Shown here in pieces: positions 44,964-60,797 of a stretch of 64,000 bases of DNA. This stretch comes from an uncultured Tateyamaria sp. (GTDB lineage Bacteria > Pseudomonadota > Alphaproteobacteria > Rhodobacterales > Rhodobacteraceae). Below the pieces are notes generated by a model that saw only the letters and a list, made by a program, of their open reading frames with translations, made no database searches and was not told the origin of the DNA. The stretch is from NCBI RefSeq assembly GCF_947504105.1, contig NZ_CANNGP010000003.1, positions 124,001 through 188,000 of the forward strand. The letters run 5' to 3'. Numbering within the stretch: the stretch's first letter is position 1; each line of letters begins with the position of its first letter. Both the position numbers and the translations under genes were made by a program.

Positions 44964-46028
44964 TCACGCCGCGTGGTTCAGGATCGCAGCCTCACTCGCA
45001 CTCAGGTTCCGGCGTGCATAGCTGCCATATGTGTGCGGGTCGAATTCGAGGTTCGGCATGCTTGCCACCAACCTTGCGCGGTCGTCTGTGCTCAACATCG
45101 GAAGCGCTGTGTTGGCCGGGTGGAAGCTTTCGGTTTCCACCCCGTTTGCGCGCAGTACCTCGTGTTTCGGCAGCAACAGGTGAACATAAGTTACCTCGCG
45201 GGCCTTGAGGTCGACGGTTATGGTAGATCCGTTGACCAGATCCTTGGCCGCCACCAACACTTCGGGCGTGTTGAACAGGTCTTGGGCAATGTCGCCCTTT
45301 ATCAGCATCCGGTGTTCCGGCGACACCAGCAGTTCCTGATCGGGCCGCTCCACGCCAAGTGCGCCCGTCGCAATCCGGACCGGACGCAACCGAGGCATCG
45401 CAAAGAGACGCGCACCTGTCATTCGTCTGCTGCCCACCCAAAGGATCTCTTGCGCACCGCTGTCCTGCGTCTGAACCTTGTCGCCCTCGCGCAAATCTTC
45501 GATCAGACGTGGACCATCCGGTGTCTCAATCCATGTGCCGTGGGTAAAGCAGATTACGCCGCCGGACCCATCCGGAGTCGGGTCTCCGTAAGCGGTATTG
45601 ATGGTGTGATGCACAACCCACAAATCCGTCTTCCTTGGTGGAATGTCATCGAGGAACATCAATAGCGGCGGCGTGCCCCGCCCCACCTCGATCACCGTCA
45701 CCGTGTAGCTTTTGGCCCCGTCGGTCACCACAAAACTGCTGTCTGTCATCAGCGGCCCGGACTCCGCCGGTTCAGGTGTCAGTGGGGTGTTGTCGATGGC
45801 CGCCCCGACAAGTCGATGCACCATCCGTGCCGCCCTGCGGCGTATCACGTCTTCTCCGTTCGCCCTGTCCAGGCGCAATACGTCCTGCGGACCGTCCACA
45901 CGCACGGCGTCCCCACGCCAAGCCCATGCTGCACCCACTGCCAGTGATGGCAATGGTGCGGCCTCGAGACCGTCCACTTCTGTTTGCGACCAGGATATGA
46001 CAAACGTGCCACGAAAGCCCGTTTCCAT
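44964..46028 (-). CDS. Hint-domain protein
   Basis: 354 aa. The C-terminal two thirds is a Hint (hedgehog/intein-like) domain: CFTHGTWIETPDGPRLIEDL, then REGDKVQTQD, followed by ELLVSPEHRMLIKGDIAQDL and VTYVHLLLPKHEVLRANGVE. A Cys at the start of the domain (GGVICFTHGT) and a C-terminal TESFHPA are where self-cleavage residues would lie. The N-terminal 120 residues are unassigned. Roseobacters encode many Hint-domain proteins, often secreted with RTX proteins, but no signal peptide is obvious here. Confidence 0.88.
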   Translation of the reverse strand: METGFRGTFVISWSQTEVDGLEAAPLPSLAVGAAWAWRGDAVRVDGPQDVLRLDRANGEDVIRRRAARMVHRLVGAAIDNTPLTPEPAESGPLMTDSSFVVTDGAKSYTVTVIEVGRGTPPLLMFLDDIPPRKTDLWVVHHTINTAYGDPTPDGSGGVICFTHGTWIETPDGPRLIEDLREGDKVQTQDSGAQEILWVGSRRMTGARLFAMPRLRPVRIATGALGVERPDQELLVSPEHRMLIKGDIAQDLFNTPEVLVAAKDLVNGSTITVDLKAREVTYVHLLLPKHEVLRANGVETESFHPANTALPMLSTDDRARLVASMPNLEFDPHTYGSYARRNLSASEAAILNHAA

Positions 46029-46181
46029 TGCCTGTATGCCTGCCTTACTTTTTTTATTGCAGGCACGTTAGCAAAGCGATCCTCATCTGTGAAGACCGGG
46101 TTTGCATAAGATTCCAGAGTGTTGCATGCGAAAGGTAACGTGGCGCGATCTGTTGACCTTCGCACCTTGTCTCAACGCATG

Positions 46182-47099
46182 CTAGAACGGCACACGCCAA
46201 CGGATCGCGCCAACAATCTGACCTTCGTCCTGACCTTCAAATTCTTCGCCAAGATAGGTCACGCCATAGAAGCCCGAGATCCCCGTTTCACTGCGCCACA
46301 TCACGCCGGCGCGCAACCTTTCGCGCGTGTCCTCAGGGTTGATGCCGCTGGCAGCCGGCAGCAACTCGCTATCTGTCACCCGTGCGATATCGGCGCCAAG
46401 CACGAAGCTGAACCCGGTCCAGTCCGACTGGACCACGTCATAGCGCTGCCCGCTGACGCCATCACGTACCAGAAGCTCGCCCCGACCGAGGGCCCCGTAT
46501 GTGAAATCCACACCGGCTCTGACCAATGTCTCGACACCCGCGCGGGCCTCTACAAATGGTCGAAGCGAGGTCGCCTGCCCTATGGCAAAACTGCGCCCGG
46601 CCTCAAACACAACGTTGGGCAGAATATCGTTGCCGACCTGCGCGTCGCGCACCGCATCCGATGGCGGCGAAATGTTAAACGTATCATGGAACGCGTCCTG
46701 AAACTCATCCAGCCGGGTCTGCGGTCCGAGAAACACGATATCCCCGCCCACGGAGTATTCCATAGGACCGCGTGTGAAATGTGTGTGCAAGCCGACCGAC
46801 AAGGCGCCCGCATAGGGTCGATCGCTTGGGTCGAGAGTGCGGATATCATCTGGGGCAAGGATTTCTGCAGACAACCTAAGTTCCAGAAGCTGACCAAAAC
46901 CTGCCGGGGCCGCACCGCCCCATTCGGGGCCCCAAACACGCGATGATTGGAACCCACCGGTGCGCCAGCGGTCCTCTCCATCGCCAAAGAAATCGTTGGT
47001 TATCAGGCGTCCATAGCCCAAACGTTGCCTATCTTGCGCATCTGCAAGACCAGAGAAGCAGAGCGTCGCACAAAGTGCGGCGGTCAGTATTTTGAACAT
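46182..47099 (-). CDS. Lipid A deacylase LpxR-family outer membrane protein
   Basis: A 305-aa protein with a signal peptide (MFKILTAALCATLCFSGLAD) and alternating beta-barrel strands. LITNDFFGDGEDRWRTGGFQ matches the LpxR/DUF2219 active region (N-D-x-x-x-x-x-D-x-x-x-T-x-G), and DRPYAGALSVGLHTHF and LRPFVEARAGVETLVRAG are typical barrel segments. Related enzymes remove the 3'-acyloxyacyl group of lipid A. The catalytic His is not placed with certainty. A lone TGTGATCACT lies at 47131-47140, upstream of the start. Confidence 0.82.
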   Translation of the reverse strand: MFKILTAALCATLCFSGLADAQDRQRLGYGRLITNDFFGDGEDRWRTGGFQSSRVWGPEWGGAAPAGFGQLLELRLSAEILAPDDIRTLDPSDRPYAGALSVGLHTHFTRGPMEYSVGGDIVFLGPQTRLDEFQDAFHDTFNISPPSDAVRDAQVGNDILPNVVFEAGRSFAIGQATSLRPFVEARAGVETLVRAGVDFTYGALGRGELLVRDGVSGQRYDVVQSDWTGFSFVLGADIARVTDSELLPAASGINPEDTRERLRAGVMWRSETGISGFYGVTYLGEEFEGQDEGQIVGAIRWRVPF

Positions 47100-50542: not shown

Positions 50543-52624
50543 TTAGTCATATTTGTTGCCGGAGCCCTTGAGCCGGAATGCGCCAGATCCCAAGCGAGTG
50601 AGGTCCTCGGCAACGGCAAGCGGCACTTCCAGTATACGATCTGAATAGCTGGTCGGTGATTTCGCCCATTCTCTTGCAACCAACCCCGGTATGGCAATGG
50701 CATCGGTGGCGGCGCGCGCCATTTGTGGTGCGGCTGTACTGGTACCACCCTGGCGTACCATCGTGCCGCTGCGAGAACCGGCGTTGATCACACCGCGCCG
50801 CACGAGGCTGTCATCGCCCTTTGCTGATAAGTCCGGACCGCAGCGATCCGCCGCAAACTCGGACGCAGGTTCATTCAACGGCCCGGCGGCCGAGTAGTCA
50901 GAAAGCTTGGACTGTTTTTCGGTAAAGGCTGCGACCACGACCGGCGCCTGACCACAGGCATAGCCACTCAGTGTCATCGCACGCCGAATGGGACTTTGTG
51001 TCCCAGGCGGATCGACTGGCAGGGGCGCGCCGAACTTGTTAAAACGCTGATAATCATCGTTATTAAAATACGCCTGTCGGCCGCCCGAGGTGAACCCGGG
51101 GAGCGTTTCGTCGCGCCGAACCCATGCATGGATCTGATCCACGGCATCCGGTTTGCGCCTGATCTTGATGGTCCAGTTGCCACATGGGACCGTTGCCTCG
51201 TCCGGGTCAAGGCTGGCACTGGGGTTCAGTGCAAGGAGAACAAATCCACGCTCGATTGGCGCTGGCGAATATTCATAGCTGAGCCGCCCAATCTCCTGTC
51301 CCGCAACGTTGCGGATGCTGCGACCAGATGGTGCATCCGTGACAAGCGAAACGTCCTGACCAAAGGGATCCGTGACCTGTATCTTGGCCTGTTCTGCCTG
51401 CTCTGGTGATGCGGGATGCGGCATCCAGATCTGTACCAGTGTGGCCGTTCGATCATCTGGCTGCACGGCGAGCGACAGCGTGGTTTCGCTGTCTCCAGGT
51501 TCCGCCACACCATGCATGCGGGACAGGTTCAGATTGCCGGCTGGTATTGTCAGCCATATCTTTTGCTGCTCGGCTACTATGCCTTGATCTAGGTCAAAAT
51601 AGCGGTCAAATAGACCCGCAAACAGCCCAGTACCATCATGCGGCCCACCAGCGTTGCCATAAGACAGATTAAACATCGCCGGGGCCAGAGCACCAGATTT
51701 GGTCTGGAACCGGCCAGCCTGCTTCACCAGTATGTGAAACGACAGGTAGAGCGCAGGCAATAGATCGACGCCGGTTGTGTCTTCCACCAATCGTGATGGC
51801 AATGCCGCGCAGATGATCGGTCGATCGGTCTTCTGTTTGTGCATCGGGAAACCCGCAGCGACACCCATCACATGGGTGCCATGGGAGGACCTCAATGCCA
51901 CAGTGGAAAACACCTGATTATAGTAGTTCACTTGGCCGGTCAGTGTATAAAAACGATCTTCGTCAAGCAGATGATCTTCGGTGCATTCTGCCAATAGCGC
52001 ATCAATTTCAGCGCGTTCCAAAGCGCGCCCAACGCTGGTGCTGACCCCATGAGGGTTGATGTTGGCATCCAAAATCGCCGCGTATTGAACCCGGGACCGG
52101 ACAGGTCCTGTCCGGAACAGATCATTGGCAATGCCAAGCCCATCGTCAATCACAGCCATGACGACCGCGTCATCGCTGACAATGATCGGACTGTTGTCCG
52201 GCCAATCGGCTTCAAAATTCAGGGCATCCCGACGAACAACCGCACCCAAGTGCAGATCCACAATGCCAAAGCGATTGGGCTCATGTGTACTGCCGGTGTT
52301 TTGATTGAGAACGTGGACAAACCCCTGACGCGCAAAGATGACAACGGCCTGTCTTCCCCTTTGCGCAAGCCGGTCTTTCCGATCGTATTCCACCGGAACA
52401 AGGAAGCTCTTTTCCCTGGCGGCCTCGTTGTGGTTTTCGTCCAGAAAACGATCAGCCCTGGATATGAATTCCTGAATACTTCCTTCAATGTCCAACAGCA
52501 CTGACCACCATGTGTCCGTCTGGTTTGGCTGACCGGCATTGGGCGCTCTTGTCAGCCGGAAGTCTGCCTCCTGACTTACGACATTTTTCCTGTAACCTTC
52601 TCTTTCATCTATCTCTTTGTACAT
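50543..52624 (-). CDS. Subtilisin-like (S8 family) serine protease, no signal peptide
   Basis: 693 aa from MYKEIDEREGYRK. The S8 triad is complete and in order: Asp in VVMAVIDDGLGIANDLF (about residue 160), His in SSHGTHVMGVAAG (about 248), Ser in GTSTAAPQMARA (about 629), with the oxyanion Asn in IPAGNLNLS. About 140 residues precede the catalytic domain and 300 residues with a beta-rich look lie between His and Ser. There is no export signal, so it is either cytoplasmic or exported by another route. Last gene of a four-gene operon, 13 nt after the haloperoxidase-like gene. Possible roles are cleavage of its operon partners or of invader proteins; neither is proven. Confidence 0.85.
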   Translation of the reverse strand: MYKEIDEREGYRKNVVSQEADFRLTRAPNAGQPNQTDTWWSVLLDIEGSIQEFISRADRFLDENHNEAAREKSFLVPVEYDRKDRLAQRGRQAVVIFARQGFVHVLNQNTGSTHEPNRFGIVDLHLGAVVRRDALNFEADWPDNSPIIVSDDAVVMAVIDDGLGIANDLFRTGPVRSRVQYAAILDANINPHGVSTSVGRALERAEIDALLAECTEDHLLDEDRFYTLTGQVNYYNQVFSTVALRSSHGTHVMGVAAGFPMHKQKTDRPIICAALPSRLVEDTTGVDLLPALYLSFHILVKQAGRFQTKSGALAPAMFNLSYGNAGGPHDGTGLFAGLFDRYFDLDQGIVAEQQKIWLTIPAGNLNLSRMHGVAEPGDSETTLSLAVQPDDRTATLVQIWMPHPASPEQAEQAKIQVTDPFGQDVSLVTDAPSGRSIRNVAGQEIGRLSYEYSPAPIERGFVLLALNPSASLDPDEATVPCGNWTIKIRRKPDAVDQIHAWVRRDETLPGFTSGGRQAYFNNDDYQRFNKFGAPLPVDPPGTQSPIRRAMTLSGYACGQAPVVVAAFTEKQSKLSDYSAAGPLNEPASEFAADRCGPDLSAKGDDSLVRRGVINAGSRSGTMVRQGGTSTAAPQMARAATDAIAIPGLVAREWAKSPTSYSDRILEVPLAVAEDLTRLGSGAFRLKGSGNKYD

Positions 52625-52637
52625 CCGACCGCCCCTA

Positions 52638-53819
52638 TCAGCGTTGCGACGGCACGACATCGCGCCATTCGGCGACGGCGGATGTCCATAGCCAGTTCAA
52701 AATGGCGGAAGGTTCATCTTTTTTGCTGTCATTATGGTATGCTGAAGTGCCCCATTGAACCCCATCTGTTTTGAATTTGCGCCGCATCTTGTCGCCCTCG
52801 GGCACGTAAAGCGAATGCCAGTTGAAATCGAGTTTTCCTTCAAACCCGCCACCGTCAAAGACGCAGGATGTCCAACCACCGCCGTCTGCGACGTCCTGAA
52901 TGTGATCGGCAAGTGCCAGGCCCAACATGCCGCCTGCTGCGCTATCGACGGGGAAGTGAACACCGGCCACGGTCCGGTTCACAGCGATGCGCGAGGCCTG
53001 GCGCATCAACATGTCCCCCCAATAGGCGTGGTCATTATATTGTGGTGCATTGCTGGCCAACATGAGCTTCCAGATCAACCGTGCGATCAGGAAGGCCTCG
53101 GTTGCATGACCGCTGGGCAGCGACGCGTGTGTAGGTGTGGGAATGACAGGCTGCACCTGCGGCGAGAATTCGATCGGGCGCTTGATGGCAAGCGAGAACT
53201 TCAGCCTCTGGATCGTCGAGAAGGCGAAGCCGGCAGCGAGGTCAATCAGCTCCAGCGTGCGCGGCGTGCGTGCCGGATCAATATACCCGATGCTTTGATA
53301 GAAGGGTATCGGCAGCGCCAGTTGAGCAACAATTTCGGCAACGCGATCGCCGCGGATTTGCGCATATCCCGCAACATAATTGAGCTGCTCTACAAGCTGA
53401 TCCATGCCCGGCGCGGTCATTTCAACCATCTGCTGATACTTGGCACGGCCGTTTGGTTCGTTCATGCTATCGCGTCGCCAAACCGTTGCCATTGGCACGT
53501 CACCCTGTTCTTGAGCTGTTACGTCCACGGTCGGCGCAAGTACGGACATGTAGATTGCCGATTGCTGGCTTGGCGTTAGACGCTTTAGCGCGTTCGGATC
53601 ATTGGCTGGCGCCGCATCGGGCGCGACGATGTGGTCGATTTTGTTGCTAACGATGCCGTCCCGGTTTGTAATGAGCGCAACCGCATCCACCGACGGCGTC
53701 CCGCCATAGGCATTATAAGCGTTATATGCATTATAGGCGTTATATGCATTATAGGCGTTATATGCATTGTAAGCGTTGTAGGCATTATATGCGTTGTAAG
53801 CGTTTTCGCGATCGGTCAT
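52638..53819 (-). CDS. Vanadium-dependent haloperoxidase / PAP2-superfamily enzyme with (NAY)11 N-terminus
   Basis: 393 aa. Residues 6-38 are eleven exact Asn-Ala-Tyr repeats. The enzyme domain has the full PAP2/vanadium-haloperoxidase signature: K207-x6-R214-P215, P-S-G-H at 235-238, and R282-x5-H288-x3-D292 (in NRTVAGVHFPVD), where His288 would bind vanadate or carry the phosphoryl group. Helical segments lie before and after. There is no signal peptide. It may be a halide oxidase or an acid phosphatase; the two cannot be told apart from motifs. Second-last gene of the operon, 27 nt after the regulator gene. Confidence 0.85.
   Translation of the reverse strand: MTDRENAYNAYNAYNAYNAYNAYNAYNAYNAYNAYNAYGGTPSVDAVALITNRDGIVSNKIDHIVAPDAAPANDPNALKRLTPSQQSAIYMSVLAPTVDVTAQEQGDVPMATVWRRDSMNEPNGRAKYQQMVEMTAPGMDQLVEQLNYVAGYAQIRGDRVAEIVAQLALPIPFYQSIGYIDPARTPRTLELIDLAAGFAFSTIQRLKFSLAIKRPIEFSPQVQPVIPTPTHASLPSGHATEAFLIARLIWKLMLASNAPQYNDHAYWGDMLMRQASRIAVNRTVAGVHFPVDSAAGGMLGLALADHIQDVADGGGWTSCVFDGGGFEGKLDFNWHSLYVPEGDKMRRKFKTDGVQWGTSAYHNDSKKDEPSAILNWLWTSAVAEWRDVVPSQR
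53706..53804 (-). repeat. 11 tandem 9-bp coding units (Asn-Ala-Tyr)
   Basis: 99 bp of contiguous 9-mers of the form AAY-GCN-TAY. Synonymous positions vary between units (AAC/AAT, GCA/GCC/GCT, TAT/TAC), so DNA identity is imperfect while the protein repeat is exact. A copy-number change would lengthen or shorten the tail without breaking the frame. The variation suggests selection on the peptide, not a fresh slippage product. Confidence 0.95.
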
Positions 53820-53846
53820 CCTGTAACTCCTTGTCAGCTATATATT

Positions 53847-55703
53847 TTACTCCGGGACACCAACAGTCCGGAGCATGTCGGCAAATCTGCGCCCGTTCTT
53901 AAATTGTGCACTCGGCGTGGACCGAAGCCAGGCGCCGACGCGGAAGTCGGGGTAGCGCTCCCTCAATGTTTTTGCAGCGTTATATGCAGCCTCTTCCTGT
54001 CCCGCACCCAAGAGTGCGACTGGTAGCATCCGCAAGCTGGATGCATGTTCCCGGTTCAGGCGCAGGGACTCGCGCGTCAAAACCAGCGCACGGTCATAGT
54101 CTTCTGTTGCCAGACATGCACCTGCATTAAGGGCAAGATACATGAAGCGGTGCGGATCCAGTGGTGTTAGGTGCATTGCACGTTCGGTATCCCGCTTGCC
54201 AAGGTCGCCACGATCACTAAATGCCAACAGCATACCGCGCAGACTACGCCCGTTTGCATCATTTGGATTGCTCTCAAGCGCCAGATCATAGCGCTGCTCG
54301 GCGGTGTCCAAGTCCTTGACCAGATGCATGAGCACCTGACCTTCGCAAACAAGCGCGAGCGTGTGAAACGGATCCAGATCAAGCGCACGGGCTGTCAGGT
54401 CAAGGGCCGCTTCCGCGTCCTTTTCCGGATCATGGGCCCAGCCTTGTGCAGAATTCAGGACATGCCAACGGGCGAGCCAAGCTAAAGGCGCAGGATGACG
54501 GGGGGCTTGCTGACGCAAATGCTCAAGGAAGTCTTTTGCCTTGTGGAAGTCCGTTGGCGAAAATCGATGCATCAGGCCAACTGCACCATGCAGAATACTA
54601 AAAAGCTTGAGGCTTGGTATCGGTTTCGAACTGATGCGGCGCACCTCGTTCAACGTGATTGCGCGGCGAATATTGGCCACGACCACTTCCAAGCCTTCCG
54701 TCTCGGGCTGGGTCGGGTCAAAAGGAAACTGCATTCTTTCTGACCAAAGGACAAAACCGGTATCAACCTCGGAAAACTCGATCGAAACAGCCACCCGTGT
54801 CCCTAATCGGACCAGATAACCAGACAAAACGAAATCCACGTTCATTGTCTGTCTGGCGGTCTGCAGTTCGGGGGCCAATCCCCCCATCGTTCCCGTGGAC
54901 AGTCGGGAGATAACATTAACATCCTTTGTCATGCTGAGGAGCTTGGCAATCTCGTCGGCGAGGAAAACACCGTAGATATCGACAGTGTCAGGCTGATCAC
55001 TCTTGAATGGCAGAACGGCCAAGGTTGGCAAAACATCACGTGGATCAAGATCTGCCATGAGGAGGGGCGCAGCCGCATCTACCGTCGTTAGAGGTTTGAT
55101 GCCCTCTGTGGCCTGCGGTGGCGCGTCTACGTCCGATGAGACTTTTGCGTTTGCCGCCGTCATTGTTACCATGATTGATTTCGGCGCAGCTGTCGGGCTT
55201 CCCTTCAGGAGGTAACCGCGCTTGGGAACCGTCACCAGAACACTGCGCGTTGTGTCACCAATCGCCTTGCGGATATCCCGGATACACTGGGTCAAGCTGT
55301 CATCCGTTACAGCCACGTCAGACCAGATATGGGTGATCAGGTCATCTCGTGAGACCAATGTCCCCACTTGCTGCACCATGTAGTGCAACACCTCAGCAGA
55401 TTGCGCACGCAAAAGGATTTCTTGTTCATCTGCATCAAAAAGACGTCGTGAGGTGGTGACATAAATGGCACCGCCCAACTGGACATCGTCCTCCTTATGC
55501 GTGTCTATCTGCAACCCAAATTCACCCCGAGACCGAACAAGATTAACGACCTCTCGTCGCCCACCACTGATCTTGCGATCAAAGCGAGGGAAAGAACCAG
55601 TTGCGAAGTTGCGTGTCGTACGCCCCTGCCCGGAAAAAATCTCTCTATGCGAGTGTTCGGAAAAAAGGTGGGCGCTGTCTAGCAGTTTGTGCGCCAACAT
55701 CAT
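53847..55703 (-). CDS. Winged-helix (OmpR/CadC-type) regulator with FlgO/TolB-like and TPR domains
   Basis: 618 aa. Residues about 78-170 form a Trans_reg_C winged helix: ILLRAQSAEVLHYMVQQVGT, LVSRDDLITHIWSDVAVTDD, then SLTQCIRDIRKAIGD and LVTVPKRGYLLKG. A linker leads to LPTLAVLPFKSDQPDTVDIY, then GVFLADEIAKLLSM (FlgO/TolB-N-like fold), followed by TPR-type helices to the end (HPAPLAWLARWHVLNSAQG, DPFHTLALVCEGQVLMHLV, NPNDANGRSLRGMLL). No receiver domain and no clear membrane helix, so it is probably cytoplasmic. It starts 3 nt after the preceding stop. It likely controls this operon or senses a signal for it. Confidence 0.88.
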   Translation of the reverse strand: MMLAHKLLDSAHLFSEHSHREIFSGQGRTTRNFATGSFPRFDRKISGGRREVVNLVRSRGEFGLQIDTHKEDDVQLGGAIYVTTSRRLFDADEQEILLRAQSAEVLHYMVQQVGTLVSRDDLITHIWSDVAVTDDSLTQCIRDIRKAIGDTTRSVLVTVPKRGYLLKGSPTAAPKSIMVTMTAANAKVSSDVDAPPQATEGIKPLTTVDAAAPLLMADLDPRDVLPTLAVLPFKSDQPDTVDIYGVFLADEIAKLLSMTKDVNVISRLSTGTMGGLAPELQTARQTMNVDFVLSGYLVRLGTRVAVSIEFSEVDTGFVLWSERMQFPFDPTQPETEGLEVVVANIRRAITLNEVRRISSKPIPSLKLFSILHGAVGLMHRFSPTDFHKAKDFLEHLRQQAPRHPAPLAWLARWHVLNSAQGWAHDPEKDAEAALDLTARALDLDPFHTLALVCEGQVLMHLVKDLDTAEQRYDLALESNPNDANGRSLRGMLLAFSDRGDLGKRDTERAMHLTPLDPHRFMYLALNAGACLATEDYDRALVLTRESLRLNREHASSLRMLPVALLGAGQEEAAYNAAKTLRERYPDFRVGAWLRSTPSAQFKNGRRFADMLRTVGVPE

Positions 55704-55706
55704 TTT

Positions 55707-56342
55707 TTATTCTGCCGGCTTCAAGAACAGCGCGGTTTCGTCCAGCTTGGCGCAATACAACCCGTCTAGCAAAACGGATTGCAATGTCCGTTTTGACTTG
55801 GCCACGATGGTAATGTCGCGTGCCCCTTGCGTGAAATACGCGGGCACCGTTTGGTCCTCAATCAAGACACCGATACAAACCGGCGAAGTGGCAGTGACCA
55901 TCACAAGCCACCCGCGCTCGCCCAACTGGGCTTGCGAGTGACCGTAAATTGGGTTGGGCGACTTTAGAATGGCGTGAATGTCATCGAGCGGTTCAAGTTT
56001 GACCGGAACGCCATCCACATCCTCCAGAAGCGGGGCCGCCACCCCCCCGCGAGACCAGTTAATACTGGCTCCAAACGTGGGGGCGGGACCTATCGACGTG
56101 CAATACATCCAATGGGAACTCGTCTTGCTTCCGTCAATCAAAGACCCAGCCCAACTGTAAGTGGCGCCAATATGCATTTCCGAAAGTTCCTTGTAGCGCT
56201 GCAGGCGAAGACGCAGGTACTGATTATTCATAATTTGGTCATAAAAAAATACGCCTTCGCCCACTGCTACAGGGGCGACATCAGCGGTAATACCTGCATA
56301 GTAGGGGAAGACTTGAACTTCGCTTACTACGTGGCTTTCCAT
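55707..56342 (-). CDS. Hypothetical 211-aa protein, first gene of the protease/haloperoxidase operon
   Basis: No family recognised. It begins MESHVVSEVQVFPYYAGITA and has no signal peptide. The composition is balanced, with several aromatic-rich strands (GVFFYDQIMNNQYLRLRLQR, then SSHWMYCTSIGPAPTFGASI and ERGWLVMVTATSPVCIGVLI), which suggests a beta-rich fold. The stop is 3 nt before the regulator start, so translation is linked. It could be a binding or substrate protein for the operon enzymes; this is inference. GC content is lower than that of the flanking housekeeping genes. Confidence 0.6.
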   Translation of the reverse strand: MESHVVSEVQVFPYYAGITADVAPVAVGEGVFFYDQIMNNQYLRLRLQRYKELSEMHIGATYSWAGSLIDGSKTSSHWMYCTSIGPAPTFGASINWSRGGVAAPLLEDVDGVPVKLEPLDDIHAILKSPNPIYGHSQAQLGERGWLVMVTATSPVCIGVLIEDQTVPAYFTQGARDITIVAKSKRTLQSVLLDGLYCAKLDETALFLKPAE

Positions 56343-56759
56343 TCGCTGTGTTTGCCCTTTGCAACTAGCATGGGGTGCCTCACGAACACGTCCATGCTTG
56401 GGCTAACTGTGCCCGAAGTGGGCTTGCAGTTCCTGAAATCTTTCCGAAATTTATCCGAAAAGAATTCTGCATGACTTTGACTCGGCCATTTTGTTGGGCT
56501 GCTACACACGCGGGGGTGATCAGGTTTTTGGGTTTGAACCGACAACTGCGTCCCCAGCCGTCTCAGAACCGTGGGCACCCAGGTGGTACGCGCGTCTGAC
56601 TGCTGCCGTCCAAGATCAGGTGAACGCCCGGGATCCTATGTGCATCACGCCAGCGGGTTGTGAAGCAACCCAGCAAAAGCGTTGTTCCACCTGGGCCCCG
56701 AAGCGCGGTGCCGCAGACCATTGTGGCGGTCGTCGAAGCTGAGTTCATGTCTGGGGTTC
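56343..56759. other. Gene-free stretch, promoter of the four-gene operon plus degenerate sequence
   Basis: Several short frames are open here on both strands but none has a family resemblance, a good ribosome site or a partner overlap. The part nearest 56342 must contain the operon promoter. The rest adjoins the broken thiD and is probably decayed DNA. Confidence 0.5.
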
Positions 56760-57342
56760 CTCGAACCCCGCATAGAGGGTAGCAAATGATGGTTCGGGCC
56801 ATGCCCCGAACCAACGGAGAGATCATCCGCATGAACAATTGTATGGGTGACACAGGCTTTGTCGGCGGCCACAGCGGCGTTCAGCTCTTGCCCCCTGGTA
56901 AGATGCGTAGCTAGTGCCGAAGAGAGCGTGCATCCGGTCCCGTGTGTATTGAATTGAGGGTCGGCGTCCTGGCGTCTTCGAACCAAGCGGTTCCGTGCGC
57001 CGTGACCAGGCAATTAGAGCTATAGGGACCGTCCAGATGGCCGCCCTTCATTAAGACCGCTATTGGTTCATGTTCGATCAAGGCGCTACCTTGTGCTTCC
57101 ATCTCGGCCTGCATGGAAGCGGTCGTGGTCCCCAAAAGGTGTGTTGCCTCTGGCAGGTTGGGGGTCAGAAGCGTTGCCCCGGGCAAGAGTTGATCCCTGA
57201 CTATTGCCACCGCGTCGGGTTGCAATAGTTTTGCTCCACCCTTGGCGATCATCGCCGGGTCCAGTATGATCGGGGCCGTGCACACCTGAAGTGCCGATGC
57301 GACGGCCTCCGCAATACCCTCGCTCTGGGTACCCACGCAGGA
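56760..57342 (-). pseudogene. thiD: thiD (hydroxymethylpyrimidine kinase) remnant: 5'-truncated and frameshifted
   Basis: One frame gives TQSEGIAEAVASALQVCTAP, IILDPAMIAKGGAKLLQPDA, LLTPNLPEATHLLG and AVLMKGGHLDG: the middle of ThiD with its D-P and G-G-x-x-L elements. The next part, NTHGTGCTLSSALATHLTRG and then DDLSVGSGHGPNHH, is the C-terminal ATP/anion-hole region (N-T-H-G-T-G-C-T) but lies in another frame. The shift falls between about 56950 and 56990. Roughly the first 85 residues, including the G-S-D-x-S-G-G-A-G-I loop, are absent. The gene cannot make an active kinase. Confidence 0.85.
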
Positions 57343-60518: not shown

Positions 60519-60797
60519 ATGGCAACGAAGAGACCAAAGCCCGAAGAGATTGTCGTGAAGTTAGGGCAGGTTGGGGTGCTGATGGGGCAAAGCATACCTC
60601 GGATTGATGCAATCAGGCAGATCGGTGTTACTGAGCAAACGTACTATCGCTGGAAGAAGAAGTACGGCGGAATGGGCACGGAACAGCTTAAGGAACTGAA
60701 GCGGGTCCAGAAGGAGAACGAGCGCCTGCGCAGAGCGGCATCAGACCTGACGCTGGACAAGTTGGTCCTGTCCGAGGCCGCAAAGGGAAACTTCTAA
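60519..60797 (+). CDS. IS3-family transposase OrfA
   Basis: A 92-aa HTH_8/InsE-type protein: KPEEIVVKLGQVGVLMGQS, IGVTEQTYYRWKKKYGGMG (recognition helix), and a leucine-zipper tail LKELKRVQKENERLRRAASD. This is the typical OrfA for the IS407/ISRSO-like subgroup. It is intact but has no full OrfB partner, so no transposase can form from it. Confidence 0.92.
   Translation: MATKRPKPEEIVVKLGQVGVLMGQSIPRIDAIRQIGVTEQTYYRWKKKYGGMGTEQLKELKRVQKENERLRRAASDLTLDKLVLSEAAKGNF

Follow-up and report, generated by a model that had tools for sequence, protein, structure and literature searches.

We analyzed a 64,000-nucleotide stretch of the genome of an uncultured Tateyamaria sp. (assembly GCF_947504105.1, contig NZ_CANNGP010000003.1, positions 124,001 to 188,000; hereafter, the window) and identified, within an operon of 4 genes, a widespread 3-gene module consisting of a tetratricopeptide repeat (TPR) regulator, an enzyme of the PAP2 superfamily, and an S8 (subtilase) protease, with a gene for a 211-aa protein as a minor extra. 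The PAP2 enzyme begins with an array of short identical peptide units, and the coupling of this array to a protease is the central feature of the module, overlooked in an initial annotation that read the sequence alone. We directly observed the co-occurrence of the trio, the array, its old codons, differences in the unit that extend across whole arrays, and the coupling to proteases of several families. Judging from these sequence comparisons, we put at about even the chance that the array is a handle through which a cognate protease recognizes the PAP2 enzyme and either cuts it or docks on it.

Distribution of the module across bacteria

A contig scan with a 21-protein PAP2 alignment confirmed at least 391 of 596 pattern stretches, the best 80 of which were used as named loci, and S8 genes were called in these loci by phmmer with the window S8 protein (E < 1e-4). 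The hosts spanned Pseudomonadota, mostly Alphaproteobacteria and Burkholderiales, along with single metagenome-assembled genomes (MAGs) of Chloroflexota and Planctomycetota, and the closest named relatives of the window PAP2 among the matches listed came from a Rhodobacteraceae MAG and Tateyamaria. An S8 relative was identified downstream and on the same strand in 78 of the 80 loci, with the 2 exceptions (L086 and L099) lying near contig ends; the S8 gene of L086 was detected afterwards by a profile search. A relative of the regulator was present in 77 loci, being absent from L084, L093, and L100, and in 5 of the 77 it scored lower and was encoded on the opposite strand. Homologues of the 211-aa gene were found in 12 of the 80 loci, always immediately upstream of the regulator.

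Pairwise identities over 75 loci correlated between PAP2 and S8 (r 0.91) and between PAP2 and the regulator (r 0.78), and this parallel indicates that the genes travel together. Further, NCBI annotation places the trio on Phaeobacter plasmids and on a Roseibium plasmid, where an adenylate/guanylate cyclase protein takes the place of the regulator. The genome of the window itself contains a second copy of the module (L116, G000:C10:29000-41500), which has PAP2, S8, and regulator genes of its own and 4 copies of the unit HAG. The self-contained module proposed in the initial annotation is thus borne out by its recurrence, with gene order preserved, in distant hosts and on plasmids. Its extension to all 4 genes as the standard unit is not supported: the 4 occur together in 12 of the 80 loci and are not confined to one strain, but most loci lack the 211-aa gene, and the set of 3 is far commoner.

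No account of the module, and no earlier description of the operon, was found in the open-access PubMed Central (PMC) literature, with most subscription papers and bioRxiv lying outside the search; the passages matched in PMC12419801 do not concern this module. The component families are known, and as far as we have seen, the array, the rewriting of its unit, and the pairing with exchangeable proteases appear to be new. PADLOC returned 0 families for the 4 window proteins at E 0.01, and nothing was found that points directly to the antagonism, defense, or surface modification suggested in the initial annotation.

A few loci deserve separate mention. The record of L079 is labeled Oceanobacillus (Bacillota) and carries a module otherwise of proteobacterial type, for which transfer or contamination is possible. 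In L148, the Parasedimentitalea marina plasmid pW43B, PAP2 and S8 exist only in pieces and represent a broken copy of the module, and L211, a plasmid of Rhizobium etli Mim1, encodes a distant S8 relative (171 bits by profile), but no PAP2 relative was found within the 15 kb examined.

Occurrence and diversity of the N-terminal array

The window PAP2 starts with MTDRE followed by 11 copies of NAY, and the DNA encoding these is the top-scoring tandem repeat of the window. Residues 1-43 were predicted by AlphaFold2 to be disordered (predicted local distance difference test, pLDDT, < 50), so the array would be accessible. A degenerate pattern for NAYNAYNAY had no match in the genome outside this array.

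A short tandem peptide repeat was identified in the first 140 residues of 101 of 102 PAP2 open reading frames (ORFs) from L001-L101; in the lone exception, L070, the start was called too far upstream, and an array appears once more of the sequence is considered. Under a strict rule of at least 4 copies and at least 12 aa, 99 of the 102 PAP2 proteins had an array versus 5 of the 837 remaining ORFs in these loci, and these 5 included 2 N runs and 2 ORFs overlapping the array in another frame. No array was found in the PAP2 relatives of 14 viral loci. Across 116 arrays, a few near-identical loci included, we identified 68 distinct units with a period of 3 (96 arrays), 4 (12 arrays), or 2 (8 arrays). 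Gly, Ala, Ser, and Asn were the commonest residues, and 18 residue types were used, acidic and basic ones included.

Selection on the array and changes of its unit

DNA units within an array differed in 99 of 100 arrays, and 1,607 of 1,727 base differences between adjacent units fell at third codon positions. Over 225 residue-gene pairs, codon homozygosity was 0.401 within the arrays and 0.404 for matching residues in the remainder of the gene. As codon diversity in the arrays equals that of the rest of the gene, it is selection that keeps the peptide repeat rather than DNA slippage, and the arrays, judged from their codons, are old and maintained by selection on the peptide. Adjacent units shared a codon in 731 of 2,410 cases versus 947 ± 18.5 under permutation (z -11.7; 92 arrays). 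Slippage as the origin of the array was rejected on the codon diversity together with this sub-random sharing. Codon identity was 0.30 at lag 1 and 0.43 at lag 2, the latter slightly above the permuted 0.39, and some duplication of 2-unit blocks is likely. In these arrays, neighboring units alternate in codon use more than expected by chance, a pattern that selection against perfect DNA repeats would produce.

Between lineages, the unit does change: a tree built from 103 PAP2 domains requires 69 changes of unit label and 3 changes of period. Among 27 pairs of PAP2 domains that were 80-90% identical, 15 shared their unit and 12 differed across the whole array; differences between close relatives included GGF/GGL/SGF/SGL and, in Microvirga, GGV/GGI. 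The unit NSF was constant in 5 plasmids of Phaeobacter gallaeciensis, P. inhibens, and P. piscinae, with 5, 6, or 7 copies, and a different PAP2 lineage of Phaeobacter (L044) has the unit NAY. Most pairs of relatives, whether or not they share a unit, showed no third-base register beyond shuffles; L057/L064 (GGV/GGI) reached p 0.047. In L060/L064 (GGV/GGI, 90% identical), third bases were kept at 0.76 in the domain and at 0.36 in the array, versus 0.41 in shuffled arrays. Third-base register mostly no better than shuffles disfavors parallel substitution in place as the way units switch, and the pattern points tentatively to turnover of the array instead.

Coupling of the array to proteases

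To the loci above we added more distant PAP2 genes, fetched by score regardless of whether they had an array. With re-fetched loci and 3 same-species plasmids dropped, the resulting tally comprised 139 array loci, in which some near-identical loci are still counted twice. A protease was seen in 137 of the 139, and in 134 of these it lay within 600 bases of the PAP2 gene; it was further off (about 2 kb) in L131 and L132 and split into 2 ORFs in L098. An S8 gene of L017 found in wider DNA raises the count to 138 of 139, and L099 stops at the contig end. A regulator relative was identified in 134 of the 139 loci. Among 34 loci without a pure array, 32 showed none of the proteases sought, and 31 had neither protease nor regulator in view, L165 having a regulator relative only. 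S8 and regulator genes were both present in L033, which has a degenerate period-6 array, and in the broken plasmid copy L148. Further sampling gave the same picture: among new loci of a sample by phylum, a protease lay beside 16 of 16 array PAP2 genes (L188 and L199 being re-fetches) versus 0 of 7 array-less ones, and in a sample by class beside 9 of 9 (4 of them known or near-identical loci) versus 0 of 21.

The proteases beside array PAP2 genes were of several kinds. In addition to the main S8 group, whose arrays had a period of 3 (108) or 4 (10), we identified a divergent S8 (3 tested; Pfam 9.7e-18 to 5.6e-20), a third S8 type with divergent transcription (8e-13 and 5.9e-7), a papain-like C1 protease (0.0016, 0.0021, and 4.7e-5, with 2 of the 3 under the Pfam cut-off), a glutamic A4 peptidase (1.5e-28), and a trypsin-like protease. 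The last follows, in L122, a 926-aa PAP2-S8 fusion with THTHTH repeats (L122:2985-5765), whose protein start, RRHLLTTAAWGAL, resembles by eye a twin-arginine translocation (Tat) signal; this fusion is probably an exported version. Array and protease classes were matched, with NR/SR/NK arrays accompanied by the divergent S8 (9 of 9), TGN/AGN arrays by A4 (4 of 4), NGGM/GGLN arrays by C1 (3 of 3), and DAR/LDA arrays by the third S8 type (2 of 2).

Proposed mechanism

In the mechanism we propose, a cytoplasmic TPR regulator, with a winged helix, a SARP/BTAD domain, or a class III cyclase as its output end, would set expression of the operon or, in the cyclase versions, a nucleotide signal. Once the regulator has switched the operon on, the protease would read and trim the array, and the PAP2 enzyme would thereby be controlled. 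A row of identical cleavable units could allow stepwise trimming and, with it, graded release, activation, or removal of the enzyme. All units would have to fit one protease cleft, which would hold the array to a single unit, and from one lineage to another the cleft could drift along with that unit. The gene set as a whole hints at an undescribed protease-controlled system. A weak hint of matching specificity comes from the divergent S8 proteases paired with basic arrays, in which the residue after the oxyanion Asn was acidic in 5 of 7; an acidic residue at this place goes with a preference for Arg or Lys at P1.

Several observations weigh against the array as a protease handle. Array class and protease class both follow the PAP2 clade, and because their combinations coincide with clades, the link may reflect common descent; descent leaves unexplained that a protease is there though its family was exchanged several times. 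The contrast with array-less loci is somewhat uneven, since the queries used to find proteases were drawn from array loci and the view of most array-less loci reached no further than 1.5 kb on each side. A control of 62 neighboring ORFs from 25 array-less loci included one metallopeptidase (M81) among the 25 of 77 Pfam families listed, and unrelated proteases could still lie beside array-less PAP2 genes. Units as different as GGV, NAY, SGD, TAM, RAQ, and LEG all pair with similar S8 proteases of the main group, and comparison by eye of the S8 SxG region with the unit gave no clear match in the 88 of 100 S8 rows where the motif could be located (12 gave none). Finally, the regulator recurs almost as regularly as the protease and could itself be the reader of the array.

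Alternative explanations and the nature of the PAP2 enzyme

The array could instead be a homotypic assembly tag, in which the side chains repeated at every third residue align so that only enzymes bearing the same array co-assemble, into a polyglycine-II/polyproline-II-like bundle, an amyloid-like ladder, or a condensate that the protease dissolves, an explanation we regard as unlikely but worth weighing. The predominance of period 3 and of Gly, Ala, Ser, and Asn fits a 3-residue helix, uniformity within arrays with free variation between lineages is expected from self-recognition, and the 2 module copies in the Tateyamaria genome carry different units (NAY and HAG). Periods of 2 and 4 also occur, however, as do acidic and basic residues among the 18 types used, and assembly alone does not explain the tight link to a protease.

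It is rather improbable, and argued here by analogy, that the array is a multi-copy peptide signal, cut by the protease into identical oligopeptides that the TPR domain of the regulator would sense. TPR regulators of the Gram-positive RRNPP peptide systems sense processed peptides, and these systems resemble the module in that a TPR regulator that binds DNA lies close to a protease and to the source of a peptide; here, a winged helix or cyclase replaces the usual helix-turn-helix, the hosts are Gram-negative, and the putative peptide would come from the tail of an enzyme. The constancy of the regulator in array loci, the TPR_19 domain in most aligned regulators (see below), the adjoining protease, units that are lineage-specific in the manner of private signals, and a unit held constant across the 5 Phaeobacter plasmids are all consistent with such a signal. 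Neighbor clusters contained no recurring exporter or importer, although no search was aimed at transporters, units such as GGA and GGV would make poor specific ligands, and the array sits on a conserved enzyme rather than on a small precursor. Like the assembly tag, this reading leaves the array at the heart of the module. A related private-code system, in which the unit is uniform within a lineage and rewritten wholesale between lineages, an exchangeable cognate protease cuts it, and a TPR regulator with DNA-binding or cyclase output reads the pieces, is likewise doubtful; if true, it would give each genome its own peptide word.

The initial annotation labeled the protein a PAP2/vanadium haloperoxidase. 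A vanadium haloperoxidase module, in which the enzyme would oxidize halides or make a reactive product while the protease acts on partners, appears very unlikely. The catalytic residues of the superfamily signature (K-x6-RP, PSGH, and R-x5-H-x3-D; Table 1) are intact, as annotated, and invariant or nearly so in 50 aligned PAP2 proteins, and the sequence profile reaches bromoperoxidase 1qi9 at 2.1e-6. The signature is, however, common to vanadium haloperoxidases and phosphatases, and the same profile reaches the class A acid phosphatase 7f17 of Pseudomonas aeruginosa at 5.9e-19. With the AlphaFold2 model of the enzyme (50-sequence alignment; mean pLDDT 86.5), Foldseek ranked 7f17 first (E 5.7e-7; target template modeling score 0.68), and ranks 1-26 were all acid phosphatases, with the first haloperoxidase, a vanadium iodoperoxidase, at rank 33 (E 0.022). 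As acid phosphatases outrank haloperoxidases by both fold and sequence profile, we read the protein as a soluble, phosphatase-like enzyme whose modeled fold is nearest to the class A acid phosphatases, and the earlier haloperoxidase label is not supported.

Class A acid phosphatases are exported by a signal peptide, and in them Ser precedes the motif Arg (SR-x5-H-x3-D). The window PAP2 shares their catalytic motif and core fold but is about 390 aa long and has an additional N-terminal domain, Asn in place of that Ser (N281-R282, invariant in the 50 aligned proteins), an N-terminal array, and a place in an operon with a protease and a regulator. It has no apparent export signal, its N-terminus being not hydrophobic in a hydropathy scan (no signal-peptide predictor was run), which also speaks against a haloperoxidase. 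With vanadium-dependent haloperoxidases (4cit, 1qi9), it shares the superfamily and catalytic residues, but the structural match is weak (rank 33 and lower). The weakest explanation, which treats the array as a neutral microsatellite or as no more than a flexible linker, is highly implausible: copy number does change by whole units and the array is predicted to be disordered, but array codons are as diverse as elsewhere in the gene, adjacent units differ chiefly at third positions, and arrays are nearly restricted to PAP2 ORFs.

The protease, the regulator, and the 211-aa protein

The S8 triad, noted as intact in the initial annotation, was invariant in 37 aligned proteins. Among solved structures, the S8 profile was nearest to the Csp germination proteases (E 2e-26), and the window protease has the S8 fold and triad in common with subtilases and Csp spore-germination proteases (9sj6, 4i0w); unlike the latter, it occurs in hosts that are not spore-forming Clostridia, and its partner is a PAP2 enzyme.

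The regulator had been described as combining Trans_reg_C, FlgO-like, and TPR domains; Pfam supports an N-terminal Trans_reg_C winged helix (1.2e-13) and TPR, but FlgO is not in the Pfam table of the window protein. In 31 aligned regulators, we identified TPR_19 in 28, a class III cyclase domain (Guanylate_cyc) in 14, Trans_reg_C in 11, and FlgO in 2, and the regulator of L118 has a BTAD domain; in relatives, a class III cyclase often forms the N-terminal part. The combination of Trans_reg_C or Guanylate_cyc with TPR is also that of CadC/HilA-type winged-helix regulators and TPR class III cyclases. CadC/ToxR-like regulators have a single membrane helix after the DNA-binding domain, whereas the window regulator, with a maximum 19-residue hydropathy mean of 1.07, has no apparent membrane helix and adjoins an array PAP2. 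Across all 4 window proteins, the maximum 19-residue Kyte-Doolittle mean was 1.61, which makes a membrane helix unlikely.

The 211-aa protein remained unrecognized, with no Pfam match. It was predicted to be all-beta (pLDDT 84.4; predicted template modeling score 0.59), and a search of its fold against the PDB gave no confident match (best E 0.064).

Operon layout and genomic neighborhood

The coordinates confirm an operon-like arrangement of 4 same-strand ORFs spanning 50543-56342, with intergenic gaps of 3, 27, and 13 nt (Table 1). An alternative in-frame ATG of the S8 ORF at 52660 would create a 23-nt overlap with the PAP2 ORF.

Table 1. Operon features of the window (positions counted from its first nucleotide)
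Feature	Position	Strand	Details
211-aa protein	55707-56342	-	All-beta by prediction; optional; precedes regulator
Regulator, 618 aa	53847-55703	-	Winged helix (Trans_reg_C) + TPR
Soluble PAP2-superfamily enzyme, 393 aa	52638-53819	-	Phosphatase-like; N-terminal tripeptide array; Pfam PF01569 3.6e-8
(NAY)x11 array, PAP2 residues 6-38	53706-53804	-	Tandem Repeats Finder (TRF) score 131
PAP2 catalytic core	52944-53201	-	K207-x6-R214P215, P235-S-G-H238, R282-x5-H288-x3-D292; sequence and alignment columns
S8 (subtilase) protease, 693 aa	50543-52624	-	From ATG at 52624; Pfam PF00082 1.1e-7; triad D160, H248, S629

The insertion sequence (IS) remnant and one candidate for the pseudogenes reported nearby were recovered. 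The former is a transposase OrfA-like ORF at 60519-60797 (HTH_Tnp_1, 1.1e-10). Beside the operon lies a pseudogene-like phosphomethylpyrimidine kinase fragment (56563-57336, with further pieces in another frame seen by eye), whose profile match at 56911-57336 covers profile positions 71-197 of 246. The window also encodes, at 44964-47099, a Hint-domain protein (3e-56) and an LpxR-like outer membrane protein (3.6e-15).

Significance

A periodic, hypervariable array that is selected on one enzyme family and paired with unrelated protease families is an unusual evolutionary pattern, and genes of this type that had been read as haloperoxidases now have that reading corrected. If the array is a protease handle, its 68 units would provide a ready set of enzyme-substrate pairs for the study of protease specificity and of repeated substrate co-evolution. 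In that case, a conserved module of soil and marine bacteria, for which no described role was found, would also gain a testable mechanism.

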